From Actinomycetota bacterium (GTDB lineage Bacteria > Actinomycetota > JAICYB01), in the NCBI GenBank assembly GCA_035540895.1, contig DATLFR010000242.1, forward strand, positions 1-47,706: DNA of 47,706 nucleotides, written 5' to 3'. A model generated the notes under the pieces. It made no database searches, had not been told where the DNA came from, and saw nothing but the letters and a program-made list of their open reading frames with translations. This document shows, piece by piece, positions 14,745 through 46,889 of the stretch (position 1 is the first letter of the stretch; each line of letters starts with the position of its first letter). The position numbers and the translations under genes were made by a program.

Positions 14745-14817
14745 GGGGGCGTAGCTCAGTTGGTAGAGCGCTGCGTTCGCAACGCAGAGGTCGACGGTTC
14801 GAATCCGTTCGCCTCCA
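14745..14817 (+). tRNA. tRNA-Ala (anticodon CGC)
   Basis: The 73-base cloverleaf folds cleanly. The acceptor stem GGGGGCG pairs with CGCCTCC (one G-T), the D arm is GCTC/GAGC, the anticodon stem CTGCG/CGCAG encloses the loop TTCGCAA with anticodon CGC, the variable loop has five bases, and the T arm is GACGG/CCGTT around TTCGAAT. The discriminator base is A; CCA is not encoded in full (A-CCG follows). It reads GCG alanine codons. Its 3' part is the integration site and is restored by the element, so the gene stays functional. Confidence 0.95.
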
Positions 14818-14818
14818 C
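14774..14818 (+). repeat. attL core (45-bp direct repeat)
   Basis: The 45 bases from the anticodon stem to one base past the tRNA 3' end are repeated exactly at 46845-46889. The bases on either side differ, so these are the precise limits of identity. This is the usual tRNA 3'-end attachment site of tyrosine integrases. Confidence 0.93.
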
Positions 14819-14877: not shown

Positions 14878-14900
14878 TGCCGACATTCTTGCCGACATTT
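14878..14900 (+). promoter_or_regulatory. Left arm-type integrase binding site
   Basis: A 23-bp sequence made of TGCCGACATT twice, separated by CT, is repeated exactly and in the same orientation at 46719-46741. Each lies inside the element, about 60 bp from the left core and about 100 bp from the right core. Position and internal direct repeats fit the arm sites bound by the integrase N-terminal domain; this role is inferred. Confidence 0.7.
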
Positions 14901-14918
14901 CGGGAGGTGGCAGGCCAG

Positions 14919-16205
14919 GTGGCCCGGACGAAGCCCCGCGCCGGGAGGCGCGACAACCGGACCGGCTCCTACCGGTTCCGCAGCGCCAAGCGCCCGTGCG
15001 CGATCGAGCTGTGCGTGCGCGATCCGGAGACCGGGGAGCGCCGGTTCCGGACGGTCAAGGGTGTGGCCGACGACGACGCCGCTCGTCGGGAGCTCGCCCG
15101 CTTCGTGGCCGAGGTCGTCGACGGCAAGGTCGCTGCGAAGACCGGCCGCCGCACGGTCGAGATCGTGTGCCGTGAGTGGCTGGATCGCCAGCACGAGCGG
15201 GCCCGGTCCGGGCAGATCGTCCCGGGGACGGTGGCGAAGAGCCAGGCGATGGTGCGCCACATCATCCGTGAGGTCGGTCGGAAGCGAATCGACCAGCTGA
15301 AGGTCACGGACCTCGAGGACCTCTACAACGTGCGCCTCCCGAGCCGGCTGGGGGCCCGGACGATCTCCGACCTGGCGGGAGTGATGTACCAGGTTCTCCA
15401 GTACGCGCTCCGGCGCGACTACGTGCGAGTGAACGTGGCCGCGCTGGTGGAGGAGCGCCCACGTGTCGCGGACCGGGACGACGAGCCCCCGCAGGACGCC
15501 GACCTCCGCTCATATCTGGAGGCAGCGCAGGAGAAGGACTGGGACCTGTTCGCCTACCTGCTCGCGGCCGCCGCGTCGGGGGCCCGGCGTGAGGAGATGC
15601 TCGGCCTGCGACCCAAGGACGTGCTGCTCGACTCCGGGGAGCTGTGGTTCCGGCTGACCGTGTCGAAGCGCGGACACGCGAGGGACTTGGACGGGAACCT
15701 GCTCGATGGGCCGCCGATCATCGTGCGTCCGCGAGGGAAGACGCCGGCGGCGCGCCGGCGGGTCCAGGTGCCGGACGGTGTGGTTGCGGTGCTGCGGGAG
15801 CACCTGCGGCGACTGGACGAGAAGGCCCGCGAGCTGGGGATGCGGAGGTGGCCGGCGGACGGGTTCATCTTCACGGCGGAGCCACCGGGCGGGAAGGGTC
15901 CGTGGCTCATCGAGGGGGCCGAGGCGACCGGGAGGCCCTTGTATCCGGACACGGTGAACAACCGGATGGAGCGGTTGAGCCTGAAGACGGGGATCCACGT
16001 GACCCCGCACCAGCTCCGCCACTATGCGGCGACGGTGGTGGCGCCGTTCCTGACGGAGACGGAGATGCAGGGCCGGTTCGGCTGGAAGGACTCCCGGATG
16101 GTGCGACGCTACGCGCACTACCGTCAGGCCCGCGACGCGGTGGCGTCAGCGGCGCTCGGGCAAGCGCTCGGACTCACTCGTTCGGACGCAGCCTCTGAGG
16201 CGTGA
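14919..16205 (+). CDS. int: Tyrosine recombinase / phage integrase
   Basis: From GTG 14919 (GGGAGG about 11 bases upstream) the protein has 428 residues. TTG 14889 is an alternative start but lies in the arm-site repeat without a Shine-Dalgarno sequence. The N-terminal part contains an AP2-like arm-binding region (NRTGSYRFRSAKRP) and a SAM-like core-binding domain. The catalytic domain has Arg226 in GARREEM, the H-x-L-R box at His364-Arg367 with His368, and the nucleophile Tyr398 in RRYAHY. It integrates and excises the element at the adjacent tRNA-Ala site. Confidence 0.93.
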   Translation: MARTKPRAGRRDNRTGSYRFRSAKRPCAIELCVRDPETGERRFRTVKGVADDDAARRELARFVAEVVDGKVAAKTGRRTVEIVCREWLDRQHERARSGQIVPGTVAKSQAMVRHIIREVGRKRIDQLKVTDLEDLYNVRLPSRLGARTISDLAGVMYQVLQYALRRDYVRVNVAALVEERPRVADRDDEPPQDADLRSYLEAAQEKDWDLFAYLLAAAASGARREEMLGLRPKDVLLDSGELWFRLTVSKRGHARDLDGNLLDGPPIIVRPRGKTPAARRRVQVPDGVVAVLREHLRRLDEKARELGMRRWPADGFIFTAEPPGGKGPWLIEGAEATGRPLYPDTVNNRMERLSLKTGIHVTPHQLRHYAATVVAPFLTETEMQGRFGWKDSRMVRRYAHYRQARDAVASAALGQALGLTRSDAASEA

Positions 16206-16217
16206 CTGCTCACGTGC

Positions 16218-16847
16218 CTATCGGCGCCGACTACCAGAGCGAGGCGAACCGGAGGTTTCGCGCCCGGGCTGTCCTTGGGGCGGTCGCAGTCCGGCAACGG
16301 TGACGTCGACCAAGCGGCGGATGGAAGCGGTCGAGGACATCTGTCCGGCGGCGGTGAGCCCGTGCAGGCAGTAGTCGGCGAGTTCACCGACCGGTACGTC
16401 GTCTCGTACCGTGCCGTCCAGGATGGCTTCCCGAAGCACATCTTGGATCAACCCGCGAAGTTCGGCTCTGGCTGTGGCCGAGTGTCCAGGTTGGTGGAGG
16501 ACCGCTGCTAGGTCCGTCCCGGTGTGCCTTTGGATCTCCCGGGTGATGTGGGCCCACGCGTTGAGTACGGCTGTCAATCGCTCGGTGGGTTGAGACTTCG
16601 CGATCGTCTCCCTTAGGTGCTGCAGATGCCGGCGGATCTCGCGCTCGTGCCACGAGTTGAGGATCGTGGGGATGTCGCTGAAGTACTTGTAGAGGGTGGC
16701 TCGTCCGATGCCGGCGGTGTCAGCGATCTCTGACATCGTGATCGAGAGCGGGCCTCGCTCAAGGGCCAGCCGGGCTGCGGCGTCGAGGATCGCGTCGCGG
16801 ACCTCTTCGCGGTGCTTCTCGATGGTGTGGGTCCACAGACGTGGCAT
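16218..16847 (-). CDS. TetR-family transcriptional regulator
   Basis: The 209-residue protein has an N-terminal TetR helix-turn-helix (ILDAAARLALERGP, then MSEIADTAGIGRATLYKYF at about residues 38-56) and a helical ligand-binding C-terminal domain. It is divergent from the cupredoxin/membrane-protein pair, with palindromes in the shared gap, so it probably represses that pair and itself. It ends 12 bases from the integrase stop (convergent). The ligand is unknown. It is cargo rather than a phage core function. Confidence 0.9.
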   Translation of the reverse strand: MPRLWTHTIEKHREEVRDAILDAAARLALERGPLSITMSEIADTAGIGRATLYKYFSDIPTILNSWHEREIRRHLQHLRETIAKSQPTERLTAVLNAWAHITREIQRHTGTDLAAVLHQPGHSATARAELRGLIQDVLREAILDGTVRDDVPVGELADYCLHGLTAAGQMSSTASIRRLVDVTVAGLRPPQGQPGRETSGSPRSGSRRR

Positions 16848-16950: not shown

Positions 16951-17487
16951 GTGGAGCATCCCCCGCCTTCATCGTCTTCTGAGGAAGTTACCCCTGGACC
17001 GGTGGTTCGCGGCATGCCGGTGTGGGTGAAGGTGTTCTTGGGGGTCATAGCCGGGCTCGTGTTGTTGTTCGTCGTACTGCAGATAGCGACAGGGGGGCGC
17101 CATGGTCCCGGACGCCACATGGGCAGCGGGGCCCATGGCGAGGCCACCCGTGTGGCGGAGGGTGCTATCGAGATTCCCGTGACGGCGCGCGAGCTCGCGT
17201 TCGATCCCTCCGAGATCACCGTGGATGCGGGCACCGAGGTGGCGATAGTCCTTACCTCGGTGGACATGCTTCACGACTTCACGATCGACGAGCTGGATGG
17301 GCACGTGGGCGCTGGGCCGGGGGAGACGGCCAAGGGGGGGTTCAGGGCTGAACCGGCCGGCCGCTACACCTTCTATTGCTCGGTTCCCGGGCATCGGGAG
17401 GCCGGCATGGAGGGCATCCTGGTCGTCCGGGGGTCTTCGACCCGTGGTGGACATCGGCCACCTGCCGGGGGCCACGACGGGCGATGA
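16951..17487 (+). CDS. Membrane-anchored cupredoxin-domain protein
   Basis: GTG 16951 is preceded by GGGAGG. The 178-residue protein has a membrane segment at about residues 25-47 (VWVKVFLGVIAGLVLLFVV), a His/Gly-rich linker, and a plastocyanin-like domain with a type I copper site: His108 (MLHDF), Cys143 (FYCSVPGH), His148 and Met153, i.e. C-x4-H-x4-M. It would face the outside and carry electrons or bind copper. It overlaps the next gene by ATGA. The TetR gene upstream may control it in response to a small molecule or metal. Confidence 0.88.
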   Translation: MEHPPPSSSSEEVTPGPVVRGMPVWVKVFLGVIAGLVLLFVVLQIATGGRHGPGRHMGSGAHGEATRVAEGAIEIPVTARELAFDPSEITVDAGTEVAIVLTSVDMLHDFTIDELDGHVGAGPGETAKGGFRAEPAGRYTFYCSVPGHREAGMEGILVVRGSSTRGGHRPPAGGHDGR

Positions 17488-19118: not shown

Positions 19119-19533
19119 CGTCCAGGTGGGCGAGTTCTTCGCGGCCCACGCCGAGGCATTCGAGGACATCCTCCTCGCTGAACGGCTGGCGACGGCCGAC
19201 CTCCCTCAGACGTGCCCGCGGCTGTTCGAGGGGCTGCGGGGGCCGGGTGGGTGCATCGTCCGGGTGTTCGAGCCGGACGGGACGTGGCGGATCCTTCCTC
19301 ACCGGACCGGGCCCTCGTCGCTGTCACCCACCGGCTTCGAGTGGGGCTACGCCGGCGCCGGACCGTGCGAGCTGGCTCACGCCGTCCTGGCGGCCGAGCT
19401 CGGGCCCATCGAGGCGGAGCTGTTCGCCGAGCCGTTCAAGCGCGAGGTGGTCGCCAGGCTGCCGAGCCAGGCCTGGGCGTTCACGGGCGAGTTCGTGCGC
19501 GCGTGGGCGCGACGAAAGGGGATCGATACATGA
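19111..19533 (+). CDS. DUF6166-like phage protein
   Basis: ATG 19111 overlaps the previous gene; 140 residues. The segment SLSPTGFEWGYAGAGPCELAHAVLAAEL matches the pattern I associate with DUF6166, found in phages, plasmids and mobile elements without known function. The N-terminal 50 residues are acidic and Ala-rich. The stop overlaps the recT start (ATGA). Confidence 0.65.
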   Translation: MDDVQVGEFFAAHAEAFEDILLAERLATADLPQTCPRLFEGLRGPGGCIVRVFEPDGTWRILPHRTGPSSLSPTGFEWGYAGAGPCELAHAVLAAELGPIEAELFAEPFKREVVARLPSQAWAFTGEFVRAWARRKGIDT

Positions 19534-20645
19534 GCGAGACGTATGTGGCCGAGCCGGAGGTGCTGGACGTCGAGCCGGCCGAGGATTCGAAGGCGATCCG
19601 TCCGTGGGCGCCGGAGGGCCACCGGGACCTGGAGGAGCTCGAGGCGCTGGCCCGCGCGTTCACGGCCTCCGGCTACTTCCCGGACACGCACAAGATCAGC
19701 CAGGCCATCGTGAAGATCCTGGCCGGACGCAGCTTCGGGCTCCAGCCGTTCAACGCCATGAAGGCGATCAACATCATCGACGGAAAGCCGGAGCTGTCCT
19801 CGACAGCGATCGCGTCGCTGATTCGCCGCCATCCGGACTACGAGTACGAGATCGAGCGGCTAGACGACGAGGTCTGCACGATCCGCTTCTACCGGGTCCG
19901 CCGCGGCGGTGACCTCGAGCGTCTGGAGCCTGGGTCGACGTTCTCGTGGGCGGACGCCGAGCGGGCGGGGCTCGCGACGAAGCGGAACTGGAGGCAGTAC
20001 CCGCGGGCGATGCTGTTCGCCCGCGCTATGTCCCAGGGGGCCCGGCTGCACTGCCCGGACGTCTTCGAGGGCGAAGTCTACGCCGAGGGCGAGATCGGGG
20101 ACACCGTGGACTCTGACCTGGCCGAGGTCGAAGCGGCCGCGGTGGCGGAGGCCGACGGGCCGGCGGTGGACCTCTGGGAGCGGGACAACGACCGCTCGGT
20201 GGCCATGCGCCGGATCCACTATACGGCCGGACAGCTCGGCGTCACGCACGAGGAGCTGTCGGCATGGGCGTGCGGTGAGACGGGGGCCGAGTCGATGGCA
20301 TCGATCTCGGCCGGCCTCCTGCGCGAACTCGACCAGGGTCTGCGCCGCGGCGAGGGTCCACGGCCGGAGTCGATCCCGGTGGCTCCGAACGGCCCCCACG
20401 TGCCCGCCGCGTCGAAGGGGGAGCGGGCCAGGCGGGAGGACTGGAACCCGGCCGTCAACGCGGCAGCCGCGCACCGTGTGCAGCCTGGCCTGTTGCGTGG
20501 CGCGTTCCTGGCCCGGTACGGCTTCGAGCCGGACGAGGCCACGATCGCTCAGGCTCGGGACTTCGGGACGTGGCTGGGTCTGTGGCTGGGCGCCGGCGGG
20601 GACATCGGCCCGGTCGCGCACGAGCCGGCCGAGGAGGCGTCGTGA
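19530..20645 (+). CDS. recT: RecT-like single-strand annealing recombinase
   Basis: The 371-residue protein matches actinophage RecT-like proteins: LARAFTASGYFPDTHKISQA, ILAGRSFGLQPFNAMKAINI, IDGKPELSSTAIASLI, then FSWADAERAGLATKRNW and PRAMLFARAMSQGARLHCPD. It would anneal complementary single strands during phage replication or recombination. No partner exonuclease is visible next to it. The C-terminal 150 residues are a less conserved acidic/Ala-rich extension that may contact replication partners. It overlaps both neighbours by four bases. Confidence 0.82.
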   Translation: MSETYVAEPEVLDVEPAEDSKAIRPWAPEGHRDLEELEALARAFTASGYFPDTHKISQAIVKILAGRSFGLQPFNAMKAINIIDGKPELSSTAIASLIRRHPDYEYEIERLDDEVCTIRFYRVRRGGDLERLEPGSTFSWADAERAGLATKRNWRQYPRAMLFARAMSQGARLHCPDVFEGEVYAEGEIGDTVDSDLAEVEAAAVAEADGPAVDLWERDNDRSVAMRRIHYTAGQLGVTHEELSAWACGETGAESMASISAGLLRELDQGLRRGEGPRPESIPVAPNGPHVPAASKGERARREDWNPAVNAAAAHRVQPGLLRGAFLARYGFEPDEATIAQARDFGTWLGLWLGAGGDIGPVAHEPAEEAS

Positions 20646-20876: not shown

Positions 20877-21434
20877 GTGAGCGTCCGGGTCATGGGCTGG
20901 GTCTGGGACCACTCCACGGCGGCGGGGAGCGACCTTCTCGTGCTCCTGGCCATCGCGGACAGCGCCGACCACGACGGCACCAACGCGTGGCCGTCTCTCG
21001 AATCGCTAGCGAGGAAGGCTCGCATCGACCGGCGGAACGTCCGGCGCTGCGTTCGACGGCTCGAGGAGCTGGGCGAACTCCGGGTGGAGCTGAAGTCCGG
21101 AGGCCCTCCGGATCGTCGCAGAGATCGACGAACGAACCGCTACACGGTTGTGATGTCGAACGAGGGGGCGCCGACGCCCTCTCGTGGAATCGACGAGGGG
21201 GCGCTGGTGGTCGGACGAGGGGGCGCTGGTGGTGATCACGAGGGGGCGCTGGCGCCCCCCGACCCGTCCTTTATCCGTCCAGAACCGTCCGGGGGCCGAG
21301 ATGTCGAAGCTGTGGAAAACCCAAGCAACCCGGAAGCGGTCGCTGCCCTAATCCAGTCAATCAAGGACAAGCTCAGCCGCAACCGGGCCGAGGAGATCCT
21401 CGCTGAGAGCCGAGCGCGCGGAGGCCCCCGATGA
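20877..21434 (+). CDS. Helix-turn-helix replication-type protein (contains iteron-like repeats)
   Basis: GTG 20877 gives 185 residues. The N-terminal 75 residues form a helix-turn-helix found in phage replication initiators: LLVLLAIADSADHDGTNAWP, SLESLARKARIDRRNVRRCV, RRLEELGELRV. The middle is Gly/Ala/Pro-rich because the DNA carries four 12-bp repeats; the C-terminal 40 residues are helical (AVAALIQSIKDKLSRNRAEE). An initiator gene with its origin repeats inside resembles lambda O. It overlaps the next gene by four bases. Confidence 0.7.
   Translation: MSVRVMGWVWDHSTAAGSDLLVLLAIADSADHDGTNAWPSLESLARKARIDRRNVRRCVRRLEELGELRVELKSGGPPDRRRDRRTNRYTVVMSNEGAPTPSRGIDEGALVVGRGGAGGDHEGALAPPDPSFIRPEPSGGRDVEAVENPSNPEAVAALIQSIKDKLSRNRAEEILAESRARGGPR
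21160..21260 (+). repeat. Four iteron-like repeats ACGAGGGGGCGC, candidate replication origin
   Basis: The 12-mer occurs exactly at 21160, 21193, 21215 and 21238. Copies 2 and 3 continue with TGGTGGT and copy 4 with TGG. Start-to-start spacings are 33, 22 and 23 bp; the last three are about two helical turns apart. The third copy is read in a different codon frame, so the conservation is at DNA level. The fourth copy also forms a GGGGGCGC/GCGCCCCC inverted repeat. Confidence 0.6.
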
Positions 21435-21709
21435 GCGTGAAGCAGCTCTACCGCATGGCCGAGCAGGTGAAGGAAACGGAACCGCGGCTCGCTCGGGACC
21501 TGCGCCGGATTGCTGCCCTACTCGATCAGCTTCCGGGGAAGGTCGCCTACGCGGCTCGGCTCCGGGTCGATGGAGACCGGACGCCGCCCAGCATTTCGTA
21601 CAGGCCGGTGCAGCACGGCGGGCGACCGAGTCGTTCTCTGGAGGCTGTCGAACTCCTCATCGATGCTCAGCGGGCCCTCGAGGAACTGTGCTCAAGAGAT
21701 CTCGGATGA
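21431..21709 (+). CDS. Small protein of unknown function, end of early operon
   Basis: The 92-residue protein starts at ATG 21431, overlapping the previous gene (ATGA). It is helical at both ends (VKQLYRMAEQVKETEPRLAR and LEAVELLIDAQRALEELC). I do not recognise it. It is the last gene of the early operon; base composition becomes less GC-rich right after it, where the defence genes start. Confidence 0.55.
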   Translation: MSVKQLYRMAEQVKETEPRLARDLRRIAALLDQLPGKVAYAARLRVDGDRTPPSISYRPVQHGGRPSRSLEAVELLIDAQRALEELCSRDLG

Positions 21710-21785: not shown

Positions 21786-23990
21786 ATGGACCTACCCGCT
21801 GAACTGCTCGCCCTGCTTCATCATGTCGAGCTCAACCAGGCCGGATGGCGTTCGCGTACCCTTCAGCGCCTCATCCTGGCTGCCATTTGGTCAGCGGAAG
21901 CTGCAGAGGTGGGCAACCTCCCGAGTCTCATTGCGGACCTCACCGACATGCCCGTAGAGCACGAGAGATTGCAGCAAGAGGCGGAGCGCCTGATGGATTC
22001 TGGCGAGATCGTCGAGCTACCTGACGGGCGACTGAAGCTCTCCGAGGAATGCCGGACATCGCTAAACGACGAGGTTCGCGTTGTTGAGGCGAATGAGGCC
22101 GATGTCCATCAAAGGTTCGTCACATGCCTTCGCAGCCATCAGCCCGACGCGGATGTTGATTCCACGTGGCGGGCATTCAATGACGAGTTCCTGGTGCCGC
22201 TCATAAAGGATCTTGGGGCGCGAACTTTTGAATTGCTCGCTCCGGGAGGGCCGCAGGCGGGAGAACTCAAAGGGTTTCAGTCACTGATGGAACCCCTTGC
22301 CAGGCGGTTCGGGGAGCCCTTCCGAGACGCAGCCCTGGCGTTCCTCGACCCAGCAAGTGCCGAGGTGCGTCAGTACCTCCTTCGGCGGCTCGATGCCTTC
22401 TTCGCGACCCAGGCGGAATCTCTCGACGATGCGACTCTCGGAGCTATCGGAGCGGCCAGAGGGGGCACCCCGGAGCTTCGAGTATTTCTCGATACGAACT
22501 TCGTGTTCTCGATGTTGAATCTACACGACAACCCCTCGAATGAGGTTGCCTCGCGCCTCACCGAACTCATCGGGCAGATTTCCAGCCACGTCCGAGTGAA
22601 GCTCTATGTGCTTCCCATCACCATTGAAGAAGCACGCCGCGTACTTAGCGCGCAAATCTACAACTTGGAAGGGATACGAGTCGGGGGTGCGTTGGCCAGA
22701 GCGGCAGTCAGTCTTCCGATGTCCGGCCTGGCAACGAGATACCTAGAGGAAGCATCCCGTTCAAAGTCATGGTTGAGTCCGCAGGACTTCTTCGGACCCT
22801 TCGAGCAGAATCTGGTGCCAATCCTCAAGGAACACGGGGTAGAGGTATTCAATGACCCTGCAATCGAAGGGCTGAGAACCGAACAAGCTGTGCTTGATGA
22901 CCTTCTTACGGAGCAGGAGGCACAACAGGCGCGCCCTCAGGGGGCCAAGCCGTACGAAACGAATCTTCATGACATGGTGTTGTGGCACTTCGTACGGAGC
23001 AGGCGACCGCAAGTCCTTGAGTCACCCCTCGACGCAGGGTTGTGGATTCTGACTCTCGACTTCGGACTGATTCGGTTCGACCGTAGAAAGGCGCAGAGAG
23101 GCGACCTTCCGTCCTGTGTGGCACCCGCCATCTTGATGCAACTGTTGCAGTTCTGGGTTCCTCGGAACGCAAATCTCGAAGCAGCGATCGTGGCTTCGAT
23201 GCGGCTGCCGCTGCTCTTCGCGCGGTTCGATCCGGAGGCCGAGCGGGTGTCAATCAGAATCCTCCGTCGCCTCTCTCGCTACGAAGACATCGGGGATCTG
23301 AGTAGCGAGACCATTTCCCACGTCTTGACGAACGAGGCGCTAAGGCAGCGCATTGGCCAAGGCGTCTCGGAGGCCGAAGAAGAGGCCCTGGTTGAGAAAG
23401 CGTTCATCGAGGAGACGCAACGTTTGGAGGACGATCTTCAACAGGAGCGTCGTGTCCTCCAGCAGGAGAGGGCAGCTGCCGGAGACCGCGAGAAGGAACT
23501 GGCGGATGCTGCAGATCAAGCGAGCCAGCAAGTCGCATCGTTACGCGAGGAACTCCAGCAAGCTACGACTCGAGCGGAAGCGCTGGATGAGACACTAGCT
23601 TCGACGCGCCAACAGGGGAGAGTGCTCGAATCGGAGTTGGGGAATGTGCAGAGAGAGGTGCGCGAGTTACAAATCGAACGTAACCGCAGACGTTACGCGA
23701 CCCGCACTCTCCTCGCGCTTGGTGTAGCGGTCGTGGGCACCCTGGCAGTGGGAGAGCTTATGAGCGCCATCCAGCTTGAAGCCGCACTCTCTCGTGTTAT
23801 CGCTGTCGCTAGCGGAGTGGTTCTGTGGATCATCTCGTCGTCCGTTGCAGTCAAAGGCGAATGGGTTTTGGGTGACTGGTGGTTCGCGCGGATGTTCGTT
23901 CAGGCCAAAGGGCTACTGGTAAGAGGCCTTGGAGGAATCGTGCTCGGAGTTGCCGCGACCGCGCTATACGAACTCTTGTGGGGTGGCTAG
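21786..23990 (+). CDS. Large membrane-anchored PIN-domain nuclease-like protein (candidate defence effector)
   Basis: ATG 21786 gives 734 residues; GTG 21780 and ATG 21768 are alternatives, and frames further upstream overlap the previous gene. The N-terminal 100 residues look helical/winged-helix. A PIN-type nuclease domain spans about residues 230-430, with acidic residues Asp236 (FLDTNF), Glu281-Glu282 (ITIEEAR), Asp396 (LHDMVLWH) and Asp425 (TLDFGL). A coiled coil fills about 528-635, and three hydrophobic segments fill 640-733. A PIN nuclease tethered to the membrane by a long coiled coil is unlike VapC (about 140 residues). It ends tail to tail with hsdR, overlapping by CTAG. Codon use is less GC-biased than in phage genes, suggesting separate acquisition. 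Likely job: RNA or DNA cleavage on infection; this is inference. Confidence 0.72.
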
Positions 23991-26900
23991 CGCGCCCGTC
24001 CCGGCAGCACCTCGTGGAGCTCAGCCACGACCCGAACATCGTCATCCGAAACTTCGCGTAGAACTATGGGCGGTTGATTCAGGGTCAAGGAGTCCGGTAA
24101 CAAGCGGATCTCGCTATGTCTCCACGAGCCGTCATCTAGTTCTTCCTTGGCGCTCTCCCAGATCTTGACCGTGAAGCTGCCTCCAAGATCCGGATCCGCG
24201 ATGTCGCGATGTTCAACGAGTAGGACTCGACCCTGACGCGTACCTTCTACCGGGTGACGGAACACACAGTAGGCGCCGTTCGGGATCCGTCGGTTCATCG
24301 ACTCTCCGAGCACTTGGGCTACGAACAGCCCAGGCCCGGGTCTCGTTCGCCCGCTGGGGCGTACCCAAGCTTCTGCTTCGACCGCTCGGGCGTCGTCTCC
24401 GAAGGTCCCCGCGGCGGCTCGGAGCGTCATGAGTGGGATGCAGTTCTCGTAGGGTTTCGCTTCTGCCTCTGGGACGATCTCGAACGGCACAGTTGAAAGC
24501 ACCGGAGCACCGGAGGCTTCCTCCGCGAACTCGAAGCCGAGCTGAACGGCCTGTTCCAGCACGGTCTGGGTCGCCTTCTCGGACTTGTCCGGCGGATAGC
24601 CGTGCTGGCGAAGGATCCGGCGGACCATGCGGCGGAGGTTCGCCCGAGCCGTCTCCTTGACCGTCCAGTCGATCGTGGCGTTGCGCCGGACCGTCTCGGT
24701 CAACTCTCGCGCAATCATGCGTAGGTTCTCGTCGCCCAGCACAGCTACGGCGCTGTCGTTGGTCTCCAGCGCGTCGTAGAAGGCGAGCTCCTCGTCGGTG
24801 AGGCCCAGGTCCTCTCCGCGGCGCTGTGCCTCGCGCATTTGGCGGGCCAGCTCGATGAGTTCCTCGATGACCTGAGCGGTCGTAATCGCACGGGCCTGGT
24901 ACTTGCGAAGGGCCGACTCAAGCATCTCGGAGAAGGCGCGCGACTGGACGACGTTGCGCCGGGCCCGCGTCTTGATCTCGTTGTTGAGGAGCTTCTGGAG
25001 CAGCTCCACGGCCAGGTTGCGGTGGGGCATCTCGCGTACGTCCGCCAGGAACTCGTCGGACAGGATGCTGATATCGGGTTTCTTGAGCCCGGCTGCTTCG
25101 AATACGTCGATGACGCCTTCGGGGGCGATGGCGTCCGACACGATTTGCTTTATGGCGTGGTCGAGGTCTTCCTCGGGGGTGCGTTTGCCGCGCTCGGTCT
25201 TAACGAGGGCGGCCTTGACGGTTTGGAAGAACGCCACCTCGTCTCGGACGTCCAGAGCCTCGGGCCTCGGGACAGAGAGCGCGAAGGCCTTCGAGAGCTC
25301 GACGACGGCTTTGACGAACCGGTCCTTGCCGTCCGGTTGCTCGAGGACCTGTTCCTGCGCGGCGGGCAGGAGGCGCATCCGATCCGCGGGCGACCCGGTC
25401 AGGAAGGCGGAATAGTCGAAGCCGTGGAACAGGTCACGGCATACCTCGAAGCGGGCGAGCATCACTGCGACGGCCTCGTCCTGATTCACAGCTGCCTCGC
25501 CCTTGCCTCCGCTCTCGGTGTAAGTGACCAGCGCCTTGCGGAGGTCGTCGGCGAGGCCCAGGTAGTCGACGACGAGGCCGCCGGGCTTGTCTCGGAAGAC
25601 GCGGTTCACTCGTGCGATGGCCTGCATGAGCGTGTGGCCGCGGAGGGGCTTGTCTACGTACATAGTGTGCAGGCTAGGCACGTCGAAGCCGGTCAGCCAC
25701 ATGTCTCGGACGAGGACGACGTTGAATGGGTCCTGGGGGTCCTTGAACCGCTGCGCGATGCCCTCGCGGCCGCGCTTAGGCCGGATGTGTCGTTGCCAAT
25801 GCGCGGGGTCGGAGGCGGAGCCGGTCATGACGACCTTGATCTGCCCGTCGTCGTCGGAGTCTGAGTGCCAGGCGGGGCGAAGCTTGACGATCTCGTCGTA
25901 GAGGTCCACACAGATGCGCCGGGACATGCAGACGACCATGGCCTTGCCGTCCATCACCTCGAGCCGCTTCTCGAAGTGGTCCACGACGTCCTTGGCGACG
26001 AGCTCAAGGCGCTTGTCGCTCCCGACGATCGCTTCAAGCTGCGCCCACTTGCTCTTGAGTCGTTCCTTTCGGGTGACTTCCTCGCCTTCGGTGACATCCT
26101 CGAAGTCCTCGTCGATCTTTGGCTTCTCGCTGTCGGACAGATCGAGCTTGGCGAGCCGGCTCTCGTAGTAGATGGGGACGGTGGCGCCGTCCTCGACCGC
26201 TCGCCGGACGTCGTAGATGTCGATGTAGTCCCCGAAGACGGCTCGGGTGTCGCGGTCGTCGAGCTCGACAGGCGTGCCCGTGAAACCGACGAAGGTGGCA
26301 TTGGGCAGGGCTGCTCGGACGTTGCGTGCGAACCCGGCGATGAACCCGTACTGGCTGCGATGGGCCTCGTCGGCGATGACCACGATGTTGCGGCGGTCTG
26401 ACAGTTCAGGAAAGGTGTCGCCCTTCTCCTCAGGCAGGAACTTCTGAATGGTGGTGAAGATGACCCCGCCCGAAGCTCGCGAGAGCTCCCGCCGCAGGTC
26501 CGCCCGGTCCCCGACCTGCTTGGGCGCCTGCCGCAGCAGCTCCTCCGATGAGGCGAAGACACCGAAGAGCTGGTCGTCGAGGTCGTTGCGGTCGGTGATG
26601 ACGACGATCGTGGGGTTCTCGAGCTCGGGGGCCAGGACGAGCTTGCCGGCGAAGAAGGCCATGGTGAGGCTCTTGCCCGAGCCCTGAGTGTGCCAGACGA
26701 CGCCTCCCCGGCCGTCGCCCTCACCGTCCGCCGCTCGGAGCGTCGTGGCGAGCGCCTTCCGTGCCGCGTGGAACTGGTGGTAGCCCGCGATCACTTTCCG
26801 GACCTCGGCGTCGTCGTGGAACACGATGAAGTGGCGGATGAGGTCGAGGAACCGGGCCTTGTCGAAGACGCCCTTCGTGAGCACCTCGAGCGGGTTCGCA

Positions 26901-27595
26901 GTGACTAGCGCAAGCTCCGTCCCCTCGATCGTGCGCCAGGGCAGGAACCACTCGCGCGGAGCGGTTAGGGAACCGAGCCGGGCATCTACACCGTCGGAGA
27001 CAACGACCGCTTCGTTGAAGCTTAGAAGGGAGGGGATCTCCTGCTTGTAGGTCTGGACCTGGCGGTAGGCGTCCCAGATGTCGGTGTCCTCGTCGGCCGG
27101 GTTCTTGAGCTCGATGAGCCCCAGCGGGAGACCGTTCACGAACACGACGACGTCGGGGCGACGATGGCTGTGCTCGTGGACGGTGTACTGGTTCACCGCT
27201 AGCCACTCGTTGTTGTCGGGGTTGTCGAAGTCGATGAGTCGGACGCGAACCCCCCGTACGCCACCGCCTTCACGAGGTACTTCGATCTGTGGCGGGTCGA
27301 CGAGCATGCGGTGGAACGAGCGGTTGTTGACGTTGAGCGAAGGGGAGTCGGTCCGAAGGACCTTGCGTAGCGCCTCCTCCCGCGCTTGTGGAGGGGCATC
27401 GGCGTTCAAGCGGACGATCGCGTCTTGAAGCCGCTCTTCAAGGACGACCTGCCGGTAGGACCTACGCTCAGCGTTGGGCATCCCCGGAGCGATATGGCCG
27501 CCGGACCGGGTCTCGTAGCCGAGATCCCTGAGCCACTCCATGAGGGCGGCTTCGGCCACCGACTCATCGAACCCGGGGGTTGACTCTATCGTCAT
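23987..27595 (-). CDS. hsdR: Type I restriction endonuclease subunit R with C-terminal LexA/S24-like domain
   Basis: The 1202-residue protein has the HsdR layout. The nuclease domain has Asp148-x13-Glu162-x-Lys164 (RRPDVVVF...LIELKNP). The SF2 motor has Walker A QGSGKS (Lys308), DEAHRSQYG and later motifs ([29 protein letters not shown]), then the helical HsdM-binding part. Unusually, about 150 extra C-terminal residues resemble the S24 peptidase domain of LexA/UmuD: LRAAAG (Ala1062-Gly1063), [12 protein letters not shown] with Ser1099, and FTVKIW with Lys1144. It cuts and translocates unmodified DNA with HsdM and HsdS. It starts 6 bases after the hsdS stop. The extra domain could be a self-cleaving regulator or a binding module. 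Confidence 0.92.
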
Positions 27596-27601
27596 GTTGA
27601 C

Positions 27602-28879
27602 CTACGCAGCTTCGGTCGCGACACGAATTTCGCCGGAGATGAGCTTCGGGAGCAACGTATCGCGCAAAGCCGCGAGCGTCCGCACTTCGCCGATGAGATG
27701 TTCACTCCTCTTGAACATGGGACCGACAAGGCCTTCGAACGCCGCCACAAGGTCGGCAGGCGGAACGGCGAACCGCGGGTGCTTAAGGCCGTCAACCGAC
27801 AACATGTTGACGGTCGTGCCGTGTGTGTATCCGATGACCTCGTTTCGCATTCGGCGCTCGAGGAGAAGGTGGTAGATGAAGAGGCGCGTCAGGGGTGAAC
27901 TCTCAAGAGCACGAACGCGGTAAAGGTGGTGGCTGAACAACGCGTCGTGGCCGAACGTGCCGGGCACGATCGCCGGGCAACCAATGAGTAGGTGGTTGTG
28001 GCCCTGCTCTGTGTTGGCGACGATTAAATCTCCAGGCTTAGCGAGATGACGTCCCTTGTACTCGCCGGCGTACCACTTGATGCCTTCGTACTTGTAGCCG
28101 CCGCCCTCAAGAACTGAGTTCAGGTTGTGGAGCGGCAGCCCCTCGCGCTCGCCGACCAAGCTCGCTCCCCGGTAGCTGAGACCTCGCACGACCTCGATGT
28201 GGTCACCGAGAGGTTCGGCCTGCCACCCTTCGGGAATCTGGCCGATGTCCGACTCCAGCAGGCCGTCGGGGAAGAGGTCCGTGATGGGGTTGGGGAGCCC
28301 GAGGTCGCGCCCTTCGGCCTTTGCGCGGATGGGATCGAAGTCAACGAACCAGGCCTTGAATATCGCCCGAGCAATCTCCGCGAGTGTCACGCTCATCCGT
28401 CGGTTCAGGTCAATCTTGTCGTCCAGAGCCCCGACCATGGTTGCGATGGCGAGTTGTTCGTCCTCGGGAATCGGCGGCCAAGTCAGGTCGGAGAGCTGTC
28501 TTGCGGATACATTCGGAAAGGTGGATCCGGTTGCTTGGGCCAGTAGCCCTCTGAGTTCGCCTTCAATCACCCCGCGGACAAGCGGCTGGAGGTGTGGCCG
28601 AGTCCTGTGACGGATTGCTGCCACCCCCCGGCCGATCGCGTACTCGCGATCTGCCCAGTTCATCCTTCCCGTGGTTGAGCCGCGAACGCAGAACAGGATG
28701 TCTCCGGTGCGGGCCAGCTTCCGGGCGTCGGTTGTGAACTGCACGGGAGACGGATGGTGAGGACCGAACTCAGTTGGGCCATTCAACAGGGGCACCCCCT
28801 CGCCTCGATCGTTGCAGGTCCCTCCCGGGGGGGACTGACCCATAACAATTTCGGCAACCTCACCGAGCGTTTTAGCCAC
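27602..28879 (-). CDS. hsdS: Type I restriction-modification specificity subunit S
   Basis: GTG 28879 has AGGAAGG seven bases upstream and gives 425 residues; TTG 28885 is possible but too close to that site. Two target-recognition domains of about 150 residues are separated and followed by helical spacers ([61 protein letters not shown]). The segment [12 protein letters not shown] is typical of the family. It sets the bipartite DNA target for both modification and cutting. It overlaps the hsdM end. The target sequence cannot be read from the protein by eye. Confidence 0.92.
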
Positions 28880-30599
28880 TGCCAAGCCTTCCTAGATCCT
28901 CTGCGATTGTGGCGTCGAGCCTCGCGGCCTCAGCCTGCTGTTCAAAGAGGAGCGCGGTGAGACGTTTCATCTTCTCCTCGAATTGCTCTTCGTCTTCCTC
29001 CGCATCCTCGGCCCCCACGTAACGTCCGGGTGTGAGGACATGGCCGTGTTGACGGATCTCCTCCAACGTTGCCGACTTGCAGAAACCGGGGACGTCGTCA
29101 TAGGCGGCAGCCGTAGCACGCCAAGCGTGGTAGGTCTCCGCGATCCGCGAGATGTCCTCGTCGGTGAGTTCCTTCTGGGTGCGGCTGACCATGGTCCCGA
29201 GCCTTCGGGCGTCGATGAACAATACGCTGCCCCGCCGGTTCCGCAGGGCCTTGCCGCCCTTGGTCGGCTTCCCGGTCTTGTCGCGTGCGACGAACCACAG
29301 GCATGCAGGAATCTGGGTTCCGTAGAAGAGCTGACCCGGCAGGGCGACCATGCAGTCGACGAGGTCGGCTTCAACGATGTTCTTGCGGATCTCGCCTTCA
29401 CCGGAGCTGTTCGAGGACATGGAACCATTCGAGAGGACGAGGCCCAGCATGCCATTGGGTGAGAGGTGATGGATCATGTGCTGCATCCAAGCGAAGTTAG
29501 CGTTGCCCACCGGGGGGGTGCCGTAGCGCCATCGGACGTCATCCCGTAGTCGGTCGCCTCCCCAGTCGCTCATGTTGAAAGGTGGATTGGCGAGGATGAA
29601 GTCCGCCTTCAGGTCGGGGTGCAGGTCAGTGTGGAACGTGTCGGCCGCCCTCTCGCCGAGGTTGGCTTCGATGCCGCGGATGGCTAGGTTCATCTTGGCG
29701 AGCCGCCATGTGGTGGGGTTGGATTCCTGGCCAAAGATGGAGATGTCGCCGAGGCGTCCGCCGTGGGCGCGGATGAACTCCTCGGACTGCACGAACATGC
29801 CGCTGGATCCACAGCAGGGGTCGTAGACGCGGCCCTTGTATGGCTCAATCATCTCGACGAGGAGACGGACGATGTGACGCGGCGTGTAGAACTCGCCGGC
29901 CTTCTTGCCTTCCTTGCCGGCAAACTGGCCGAGGAAGTACTCGTAGACGCGGCCGAGCACGTCCTGGGACTGGTTGTCGCGTCCCCCGAGCCCGATCCCT
30001 GAGATGAGGTCGATGAGCTCGCCGAGGCGACGCTTGTCGAGCACGGGTCTCGCGTAGTCCTTCGGCAGCACGCCCTTGAGGGAGGGGTTTTCGCGTTCGA
30101 TGGCGTCCATTGCGGAGTCGATGAGGGTGCCGATCTCGGGCTGCTTCGCGGCGGCCTGGAGCTTGTCCCATCGCGCGTCAGGGGGAACCCAGAAGACGTG
30201 CTCGGCCCGGTACTCGTCGGGGTCCTCGGGGTCTGCACCCTCGGTCTTCTCCAGCTCGAGGAGGTGTTGGTGTCGGGCCTCGAAGGCGTCGGAGATGTAC
30301 TTGAGGAAGATGAGGCCGAGGACGACGTGTTTGTACTCAGCGGCGTCCATATGGCCGCGCATCTTGTCTGCGGCGGCCCAGAGCGTGGCCTCGAGGTTGA
30401 GCGGTTTGAACTTCTTGTTCTTCTTCTTCAGCCATGCTTCGACGGCGTCCTTCTCGAAGACGAGGGTCTCGTACCCGGACAGCGGCGCGGGGAAGTCGCT
30501 GCCCTGCTTCTTCCGCCACTGGGTGACCGCCGGTACCGAGACGCCCGCCATAGCCGCGATCTCGTCGATGCCGATGATCTGTGCCGCTCTCGTCGCCAC
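28872..30599 (-). CDS. hsdM: Type I DNA methyltransferase subunit M with N-terminal helix-turn-helix
   Basis: GTG 30599 with GGAG five bases upstream gives 575 residues. Normal HsdM proteins begin at the block [19 protein letters not shown]; here that block starts near residue 67. The extra N terminus is an excisionase/MerR-type helix-turn-helix: [20 protein letters not shown], then [13 protein letters not shown]. The methylase part has the AdoMet motif [12 protein letters not shown], the catalytic NPPF at 338-341 and the C-terminal helices. It methylates adenine at the target chosen by HsdS. Two palindromes in its promoter make autorepression by the HTH likely (inference). Confidence 0.93.
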
Positions 30600-31918: not shown

Positions 31919-31950
31919 CCTGAGGCGGCTTTAGCCGCGTGGAGAGCGTG

Positions 31951-33195
31951 ATGATCCGAGACCGCATCCTTGAGCTCCGCCGTGTGCCGGCGGGTCAGCT
32001 CGAGCCCAACCCGCGCAACTGGCGGCGCCATCCGGAAGCTCAGTCAAGGGCCGTCCGGGCCGTGCTGGAGGACGTCGGATACGCCGACGCGCTCCTGGCC
32101 CGCGAGGACGACGGCCGGCTCGTCCTGATCGACGGCCATCTCCGGGCCGAGACCACGCCCGACCAGGAGGTGCCCGTGCTTGTGCTTGATGTCACCGAGG
32201 CCGAGGCGGACAAGATCCTCGCCACGCTCGATCCGCTGGCCGCGATGGCCGAGCCTGACCCCGAGGCGCTGCGCGAGCTCCTCGAAGAGGTGGAGATACC
32301 CAGCGAAGAGTTGGCCCGCGAGCTTGATCGGATGGCCGAGGTCGAGCGGAGCGGCGGACGGACGCCAGCCGACGATCTCCCCGATGAGACACCCGCGGTC
32401 ACGAAGCCGGGCGACCTGTGGGTGCTCGGCCCCCATCGGCTGCTCTGCGGCGACTCGACCAAGCCGGAGGACGTCGAACGGGTCATGGCCGGGAGGAAAG
32501 CAGCCCTGTTCGCTACCGACCCCCCCTTCGGTGTGCGGTACACAGGTGAGCGGCCGTCCCGCTCCAAGAAGGGCGGGGACTCGGGCAAGGACTGGACCGA
32601 GAAGGGTTGGCACGACATCCCCGAGGCCGAGTACGGAACGTTCCTGCGCGGATTCACGTCGGCCGCAGCGCCGCATCTCCAGGACGATGCGGCCTGGTAC
32701 ATCTGGCACGCCCACCGCCACGCGGGCCTGATCCAACAGGTGTGGCGCGTGTTGGACGTGCTGGACCACCAGCAGATCGTCTGGGTGAAGCCCGCGCCCA
32801 TGTTCGCCACCGCGTACTTCAACTGGCGACATGAGCCCTGCCTGTTCGGATGGCGGCGGGGCCACCGTCCGGATTGGGTGGATGCCCATTACGCGGCCAA
32901 GGTAACGAGCGTTTGGGAGGTGTCCTACGACGAGGGGCGGCGCAAGCAGCAGGCCGAACATCCCACGCAGAAACCGGTCGAGCTGTTCGCGATCCCGATG
33001 CGCATCCACACGCATCCCGGCGATGTCTGCTTCGAGCCGTTCTCCGGATCGGGGTCGCAGCTCGTCGCCGCGGCGCAGGAGGGCCGGGTGTGCTGCGCGA
33101 TCGAGCTCGAGCCGAGGTTCTGCGACCTGGCTGTGCGCCGGTGGGAGGAGTTCACCGGTGAGGAGGCTGTCCTCGAGGAACCCGCCGGCCGATGA
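31951..33195 (+). CDS. Phage DNA methyltransferase with ParB-like N-terminal domain
   Basis: ATG 31951 with GGAG six bases upstream gives 414 residues (GTG 31939 is possible). The first about 95 residues are a ParB/Srx-like domain (LEPNPRNWRRHPEAQ, LIDGHLRAE). The C-terminal domain is an N4/N6 methylase of the beta class: catalytic DPPF at 190-193, and the AdoMet-binding EPFSGSGS at 362-369 after HPTQKP. Such enzymes between the terminase genes are frequent in actinophages and probably protect phage DNA from host restriction. It could also shield against the element's own HsdR if targets overlap. The target site is unknown. Confidence 0.9.
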   Translation: MIRDRILELRRVPAGQLEPNPRNWRRHPEAQSRAVRAVLEDVGYADALLAREDDGRLVLIDGHLRAETTPDQEVPVLVLDVTEAEADKILATLDPLAAMAEPDPEALRELLEEVEIPSEELARELDRMAEVERSGGRTPADDLPDETPAVTKPGDLWVLGPHRLLCGDSTKPEDVERVMAGRKAALFATDPPFGVRYTGERPSRSKKGGDSGKDWTEKGWHDIPEAEYGTFLRGFTSAAAPHLQDDAAWYIWHAHRHAGLIQQVWRVLDVLDHQQIVWVKPAPMFATAYFNWRHEPCLFGWRRGHRPDWVDAHYAAKVTSVWEVSYDEGRRKQQAEHPTQKPVELFAIPMRIHTHPGDVCFEPFSGSGSQLVAAAQEGRVCCAIELEPRFCDLAVRRWEEFTGEEAVLEEPAGR

Positions 33196-46844: not shown

Positions 46845-46889
46845 CGTTCGCAACGCAGAGGTCGACGGTTCGAATCCGTTCGCCTCCAC
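46845..46889 (+). repeat. attR core (45-bp direct repeat)
   Basis: Exact copy of 14774-14818, equal to the 3' part of tRNA-Ala from the anticodon stem onward. The 5' half of the tRNA is absent here, so this is not a second tRNA gene. The region 46683-47259 holds only this repeat, the regulatory sites above and one gene remnant. Confidence 0.93.

Follow-up and report, generated by a model that had tools for sequence, protein, structure and literature searches.

To our knowledge, the origins and the initiator specificities of most phages are unknown. In phage SPP1, the origin oriL lies inside gene 38. Its G38P is an origin-binding protein with this discrete origin (PMC3485210). The origin of phage lambda is found in the middle of gene O, where four iterons stand beside an AT-rich region (PMC7466680, PMC6022878), and in pSK41 RepA, of the RepA_N type, four Rep boxes are located centrally within rep, so that the linker joining the DNA-binding and C-terminal domains is encoded by origin DNA (PMC5703833). 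Since lambda O and pSK41 RepA_N both have it, the principle of an origin nested in its initiator gene is already known. For mycobacteriophage RepA, an origin within repA has been suspected, and repeats were not found (PMC7157519). As for initiators with an HTH_36 domain, to which the gene described here belongs, we came across no description of intragenic iterons in the open-access literature searched.

The window, meaning the whole stretch of 47,706 nucleotides that was analysed, is a single contig from a high-GC genome of 2.64 Mb, and it holds a complete prophage of about 32.1 kb bounded by a perfect 45-bp direct repeat. Here, attL (14774..14818, + strand) is in the 3' end of tRNA-Ala(CGC), and the perfect second copy of the 45 bp forms attR (46845..46889, +). 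The prophage integrase (14889..16205, +) matches PF00589 (E 1e-11), and further prophage genes comprise an excisionase-like gene and those for type I restriction-modification, the small and large terminase, the portal, the scaffold, and the capsid. With an ORF for a RecT-like annealing protein in the early module (19212..20645, +; phrog_561, E 1.3e-23) upstream of the initiator gene, and with the integrase, TerS, TerL, portal, capsid, and att sites all present, the location of the initiator gene in the early region is confirmed. The ORF at 21431-21709 gave no Pfam match, nor did the ORFs adjoining the short-form genes of the family, and hence no helicase or loader is recognised beside the initiator gene. 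Elsewhere in the prophage, the replication gene and the packaging genes are separated by what looks like a complete type I restriction-modification system (R, S, M; 23987-30599, − strand), and an ORF for a DNA N6/N4 methylase (31939-33195, +) adjoins that of the large terminase and overlaps it. Two ORFs called by eye, a possible TetR-type regulator (16218-16847, −) and a possible copper-binding secreted protein (16951-17487, +), lie just within the prophage at its integrase end and are candidate lysogeny cargo genes.

By Pfam and PHROG, the gene at 20877..21434 (+), which has a GTG start, encodes an HTH_36 / O-like replication initiator of 185 aa. A preliminary description of this DNA had ascribed a replication-type HTH to the protein, and this is borne out by PF13730 HTH_36 (E 1.4e-10, 41.3 bits against a curated cut-off of 25) and by the PHROG matches, annotated ‘replication initiation O-like’ and ‘replication initiation protein’ (E down to 3e-17). 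The match to phrog_391 spans only residues 1-158. In the Pfam scan, domain matches were limited to HTH_36 and a weak HTH_29, and there was none to the Phage_rep_O domain (PF04492) or to the RepA_N domain. In the AlphaFold2 model, whose input was a 65-sequence alignment, a winged-HTH DNA-binding domain of helices and two strands is found at aa 1-95 (20877..21161, +), with a pLDDT of about 95 or more over aa 1-70 and of 70-83 over aa 71-100. Its recognition helix is placed at aa 52-65 (21030..21071, +), both by the modelled helix H52-65 and by the mutual-information ranking given below. The linker (residues about 100-150), which is encoded by the repeat DNA, has low confidence and is modelled as disordered, and a C-terminal helix at aa 152-180 (H152-180; 21330..21416, +; pLDDT about 90) is a possible partner-binding segment. 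A fold search of the PDB returned generic winged HTHs and, weakly, initiator domains (4pql, 4pt7, and 5kbj, E 0.003-0.016) as well as Fur- and MarR-type repressors, and among viral models it returned phage replication HTH proteins, one of them a putative replication protein O. Searching the PDB by sequence with profile A1 gave no chain, and no further high-score copy of the window's subfamily was seen among 61 near genomes.

The preliminary description had rested on four exact copies of one repeat, and these we indeed find as ACGAGGGGGCGC on the + strand at 21160..21171 (F1), 21193..21204 (F2), 21215..21226 (F3), and 21238..21249 (F4). Their start-to-start spacings are 33, 22, and 23, in keeping with the 22-23 bp periodicity noted for the last three copies. 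Moreover, F1 and F4 each form a dyad with an inverted half-site on the − strand that the preliminary description had not noted, these being R1 (21174..21185; ACGAGAGGGCGT on the minus strand, 2 mismatches) and R2 (21252..21262; GCGCCCCCCGA on the + strand, 3 mismatches; inverted repeat I2). The array thus reads F-R..F.F.F-R, or F284-R297, F317, F339, and F362-R375 in gene coordinates, with inverted partners only for the first and last copy and two of the four sites without one, and it occupies linker-coding DNA about 280-385 nt inside the gene. Counted from the GTG at 20877, the codon phases of the copies are 1, 1, 2, and 1, so the frame of copy 3 does differ as had been claimed, and it is read as G-RGGA, the others as EGAP, EGAL, and EGAL. 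Exact ACGAGGGGGCGC occurs in the window in this gene only, and four of the nine occurrences in the 2.64-Mb assembly are those described here. When the gene was shuffled 20,000 times among synonymous codons, with protein and codon usage held fixed, a four-copy 12-mer never arose (three copies arose in 27), and the near-repeat statistic was 48 in the real gene versus a mean of 4.2 and a maximum of 19 in the shuffles. Frame analysis and shuffles therefore agree with the earlier claim that protein constraint does not explain the repeats.

A check named in the preliminary description, whether related genes keep the repeats as their linkers diverge, had a positive outcome. In L009, L041, L012-L014, L018, and L036, the linker peptide and the repeat word both differ from those of the window, and half-site positions or spacings are kept. 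Half-sites fall, in gene coordinates, at F280-R294, F313, F335, and F358-R373 in L009, at F271-R285, F303, F325, and F347-R362 in L012-L014 and L018-L019, and at F286-R299, F319, F341, and F363 in L036. The words in relatives are GGGGTGACA, GGGGTGTCA, GGGGGTTCA, GGGGCGTCA, and GGGCGGACA (nearest relatives, viral contigs). What had been called conservation at the DNA level accordingly holds for array positions, orientation, and helical spacing, and does not extend to the word, which changes from one relative to another. Because of the 22-bp spacing, one word falls in all three codon frames, and the step from L013 (GGGGTGTCA) to L014 (GGGGGTTCA) therefore alters three different peptides together; the recognition helix is SRSTVQR in the former and SRSTVKR in the latter. 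Selection acting at the DNA level on a common binding word predicts such a joint change, and selection at the protein level does not.

Intragenic near-repeats beyond all 100 of a gene's own synonymous shuffles were found in 73 of 91 distinct family genes, compared with 10 of 300 other ORFs taken as controls from the same loci, and when the genes were clustered at 70% identity, 45 of the 56 representatives still passed. Spacings between the family repeats peak at 22, 17, and 33 bp. In fact, hundreds of related phage genes carry such intragenic sites, with differing site words. Lambda O, used as a positive control, also passes the shuffle test, its annotated iterons being at gene positions 349-433, and the initiators of four further phages, Acinetobacter AB1 (gp53), Arthrobacter KellEzio (gp40), Vibrio K74, and Microcystis Mvi, have repeats beyond all 200 synonymous shuffles, spaced by 17-24 bp. 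A sampled Bacillus replisome organizer (Phage_rep_org_N) did not pass. The 18 of 91 family genes that fail include a related group (L057, L058, L062, L063, and L067, with the helix DKRTVKRI) in which the N-terminal domain is kept and intragenic repeats are absent; the origin of this group may be located elsewhere. In an HTH_36 minority (L210, L222, L228, L240, and L252), we also noticed the GGGGTGACA word on the non-coding strand of the gene. Separately, L206 and L224 carry GGGGTGACA pairs on both strands within 45 bp, outside any HTH ORF, and these are possibly a similar origin detached from its gene.

Just past the array, the family DNA is AT-rich. Across 64 genes, the AT content 30-60 bp beyond the last iteron exceeds the gene level by up to 0.16, and AT3 downstream of the array is 0.59 versus the 0.32 expected from usage by the same amino acids elsewhere in the gene (an excess of 0.28), being higher in 62 of 64 genes. 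The unwinding region of lambda lies at the same place as this flank. In the window, the candidate AT-rich unwinding region covers codons 131-150 (21267..21326), with an AT3 of 0.50 versus 0.24 for the gene, a weak signal that is not significant alone (best 24-codon window, p 0.30).

We also scanned viral contigs for the DNA string alone, with the pattern GGGGTGACA-N13-GGGGTGACA and with pairs of other words. ORFs of the HTH_36 type contained 74 of the 82 GGGGTGACA-pair sites that have a covering ORF, 77 of 101 sites for CCCCGAAC pairs, and 98 of 114 for GGGGTGTCA pairs. The window's own word, searched as AGGGGGCGC pairs, gave just five viral loci, one in an HTH ORF and one a tandem repeat outside HTH genes. 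Pattern-pair scans of 397 genomes of the phylum yielded 0 and 3 matches, of use as background only, and as the GGGGTGACA pair is absent from all 397 it is rare as such. Three expectations had been fixed before the scans of these other words, and two of them, that CCCCGAAC would go with K57 and G or A54 and GGGGTGTCA with S53, were borne out: with CCCCGAAC, Q56 occurs in 35/35 and K57 in 28/35, and 21 distinct helices have G54, and with GGGGTGTCA, R57 occurs in 39/42 and S53 in 23/42. The third concerned the window's own word, whose five loci speak neither for nor against it.

When the domain columns of 71 sequences, all below 75% identity, were ranked by mutual information, the most informative on word class were 57 (z 27.7), 54, 53, and 52, all of them in the recognition helix. 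Between word classes, R57 is present in 45/47 versus 0/24 (Fisher p 6e-17) and R53 in 24/24 versus 10/23, and shared ancestry inflates these word-helix statistics. Where proteins of different word classes come closest, with 76-82% identity in the scaffold, they differ at these same helix residues, as in a natural close pair (scaffold 82% identical) with SERSVKR and TGAC in one member and SESSVQR and TGTC in the other. A tree-based independent-pairs test had only 2-3 supported pairs, which agreed with the expected direction at residues 57, 54, and 53 without reaching significance, and shared ancestry possibly contributes to the word-helix link for that reason.

Taken as a whole, the sequence evidence leads us to read the repeats as half-sites for initiator binding in a phage replication origin that lies inside the initiator gene itself, where the linker is encoded, with a probability of about 0.83. 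Computation supports this as far as cognate recognition, and it shows the array, its constraint at the DNA level, a geometry kept across relatives, a recognition helix that co-varies with the word, and an AT-rich flank in the family. In the course of events that we infer, which extends from binding through opening and helicase loading to actual use of the origin, the N-terminal winged HTH of the encoded protein would read the word through its recognition helix. Here, the outer sites would act as dyads (F-R, 13-15 bp apart) bound as dimers, and the single inner sites, phased about two or three helical turns apart, would have protein bound along them. The bound protein may then wrap or bend the DNA into a complex resembling the lambda O-some, which would strain and open the AT-rich stretch just downstream of the array, where the host replicative helicase would be recruited and loaded.

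Among other readings, the one that asks for most attention is that the sites are operators with no origin involved, the protein using them to repress or adjust the expression of its own gene or of early genes further downstream. The winged-HTH fold is a general one with weak matches to Fur and MarR-type repressors, and co-evolution with binding sites would, on its own, be equally expected of an operator. Against this, the array is well inside the gene and not at a promoter, its helical phasing and the AT-rich flank at synonymous sites fit an origin, PHROGs place the family under replication initiation, and lambda O shows the same layout. We thus regard a purely regulatory array as unlikely, though operator and origin roles could coexist. 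That the sites serve another protein, be it host DnaA or a methylase, packaging, recombination, or partition factor, is very unlikely: the prophage does encode a type I R-M system, a DNA methylase, and a RecT-like protein, but the word varies among relatives in step with the recognition-helix residues of the encoded protein itself, which a third-party binder does not predict.

The remaining two readings dispense with a DNA-binding role altogether. Low-complexity linkers are common to the family, and some members (L092 and L097) have GVT repeats with an in-frame spacing of 21 bp, as protein-level constraint on, or tandem duplication of, a Gly/Pro-rich linker peptide would give. Yet synonymous shuffles never match the window gene, copies occur in all three codon frames, 103 of 170 family spacings are not divisible by three, and pairs of DNA words alone retrieve the gene family; this protein-repeat reading, highly improbable to us, was rejected on the shuffles and the frame analysis. 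A compositional accident in GC-rich DNA, in whose favour it may be said that the window contains no more matches to ACGAGGGGGCGC with up to 2 mismatches than chance would give, has a negligible probability given four exact copies within 90 bp, and it was likewise rejected on the synonymous shuffles of the window gene and on the array being conserved in relatives.

For the HTH_36 phage initiators as a class, we think it likely that the origin is in the linker and that residues 52, 53, 54, and 57 set the word, so that the DNA specificity and the origin of an uncharacterised phage could both be read from one gene, and that all copies, in three frames, are rewritten when the helix changes. The gene itself would then disclose the probable binding word of its protein, making the family a natural data set for deriving the recognition code of a winged-HTH family, and origins would be mappable from sequence. 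Open to study as well would be the co-evolution of a protein with a site that it also encodes, in which a helix change obliges one DNA word to change jointly in several codon frames. We expect this code to surprise specialists more than the origin.

Compared with the described systems, the window initiator has, like lambda O, a replication-type DNA-binding N-terminus, and in both genes phased initiator repeats stand where the linker is encoded. The resemblance to lambda O suggested in the preliminary description therefore stands as regards the gene place of the iterons and the shuffle test, and fails as regards family membership, in that the N-terminal domain is HTH_36 and not the Phage_rep_O (PF04492) that lambda O itself matches. 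Other differences are that single half-sites and outer dyads take the place of lambda's four dyads, that the protein is short, ends in one helix, and lacks an O-like C-terminal (P-binding) domain, and that a P-like loader is not recognised near the gene. Meanwhile, phrog_391 is common to the lambda O C-terminus and HTH_36 members. With pSK41 RepA, the likeness consists of repeats in linker-coding DNA and of the weak fold matches given above, which reach only E 0.003-0.016, and the pSK41 case differs in being a plasmid replicon with another domain family. SPP1 and the replisome-organizer modules are alike in that the C-terminal part of some family members is common to replisome-organizer and O-like families, whereas the N-terminus of the sampled Bacillus organizer is Phage_rep_org_N. 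A further case is AB1 gp53, an HTH_36 gene with intragenic repeats that stands directly upstream of a DnaB-like helicase gene (L182, 1001-2357). The AB1, KellEzio, Mvi, and K74 initiators differ from that of the window in their words and longer C-termini, and HTH_36 was assigned by Pfam for AB1 only, the other three having been found by similarity to family members. By analogy, then, the window initiator would work like lambda O from outside the lambda O DNA-binding family, and what is new, as far as the open literature searched shows, is the generality of this arrangement in HTH_36 phage initiators together with the word-helix code.
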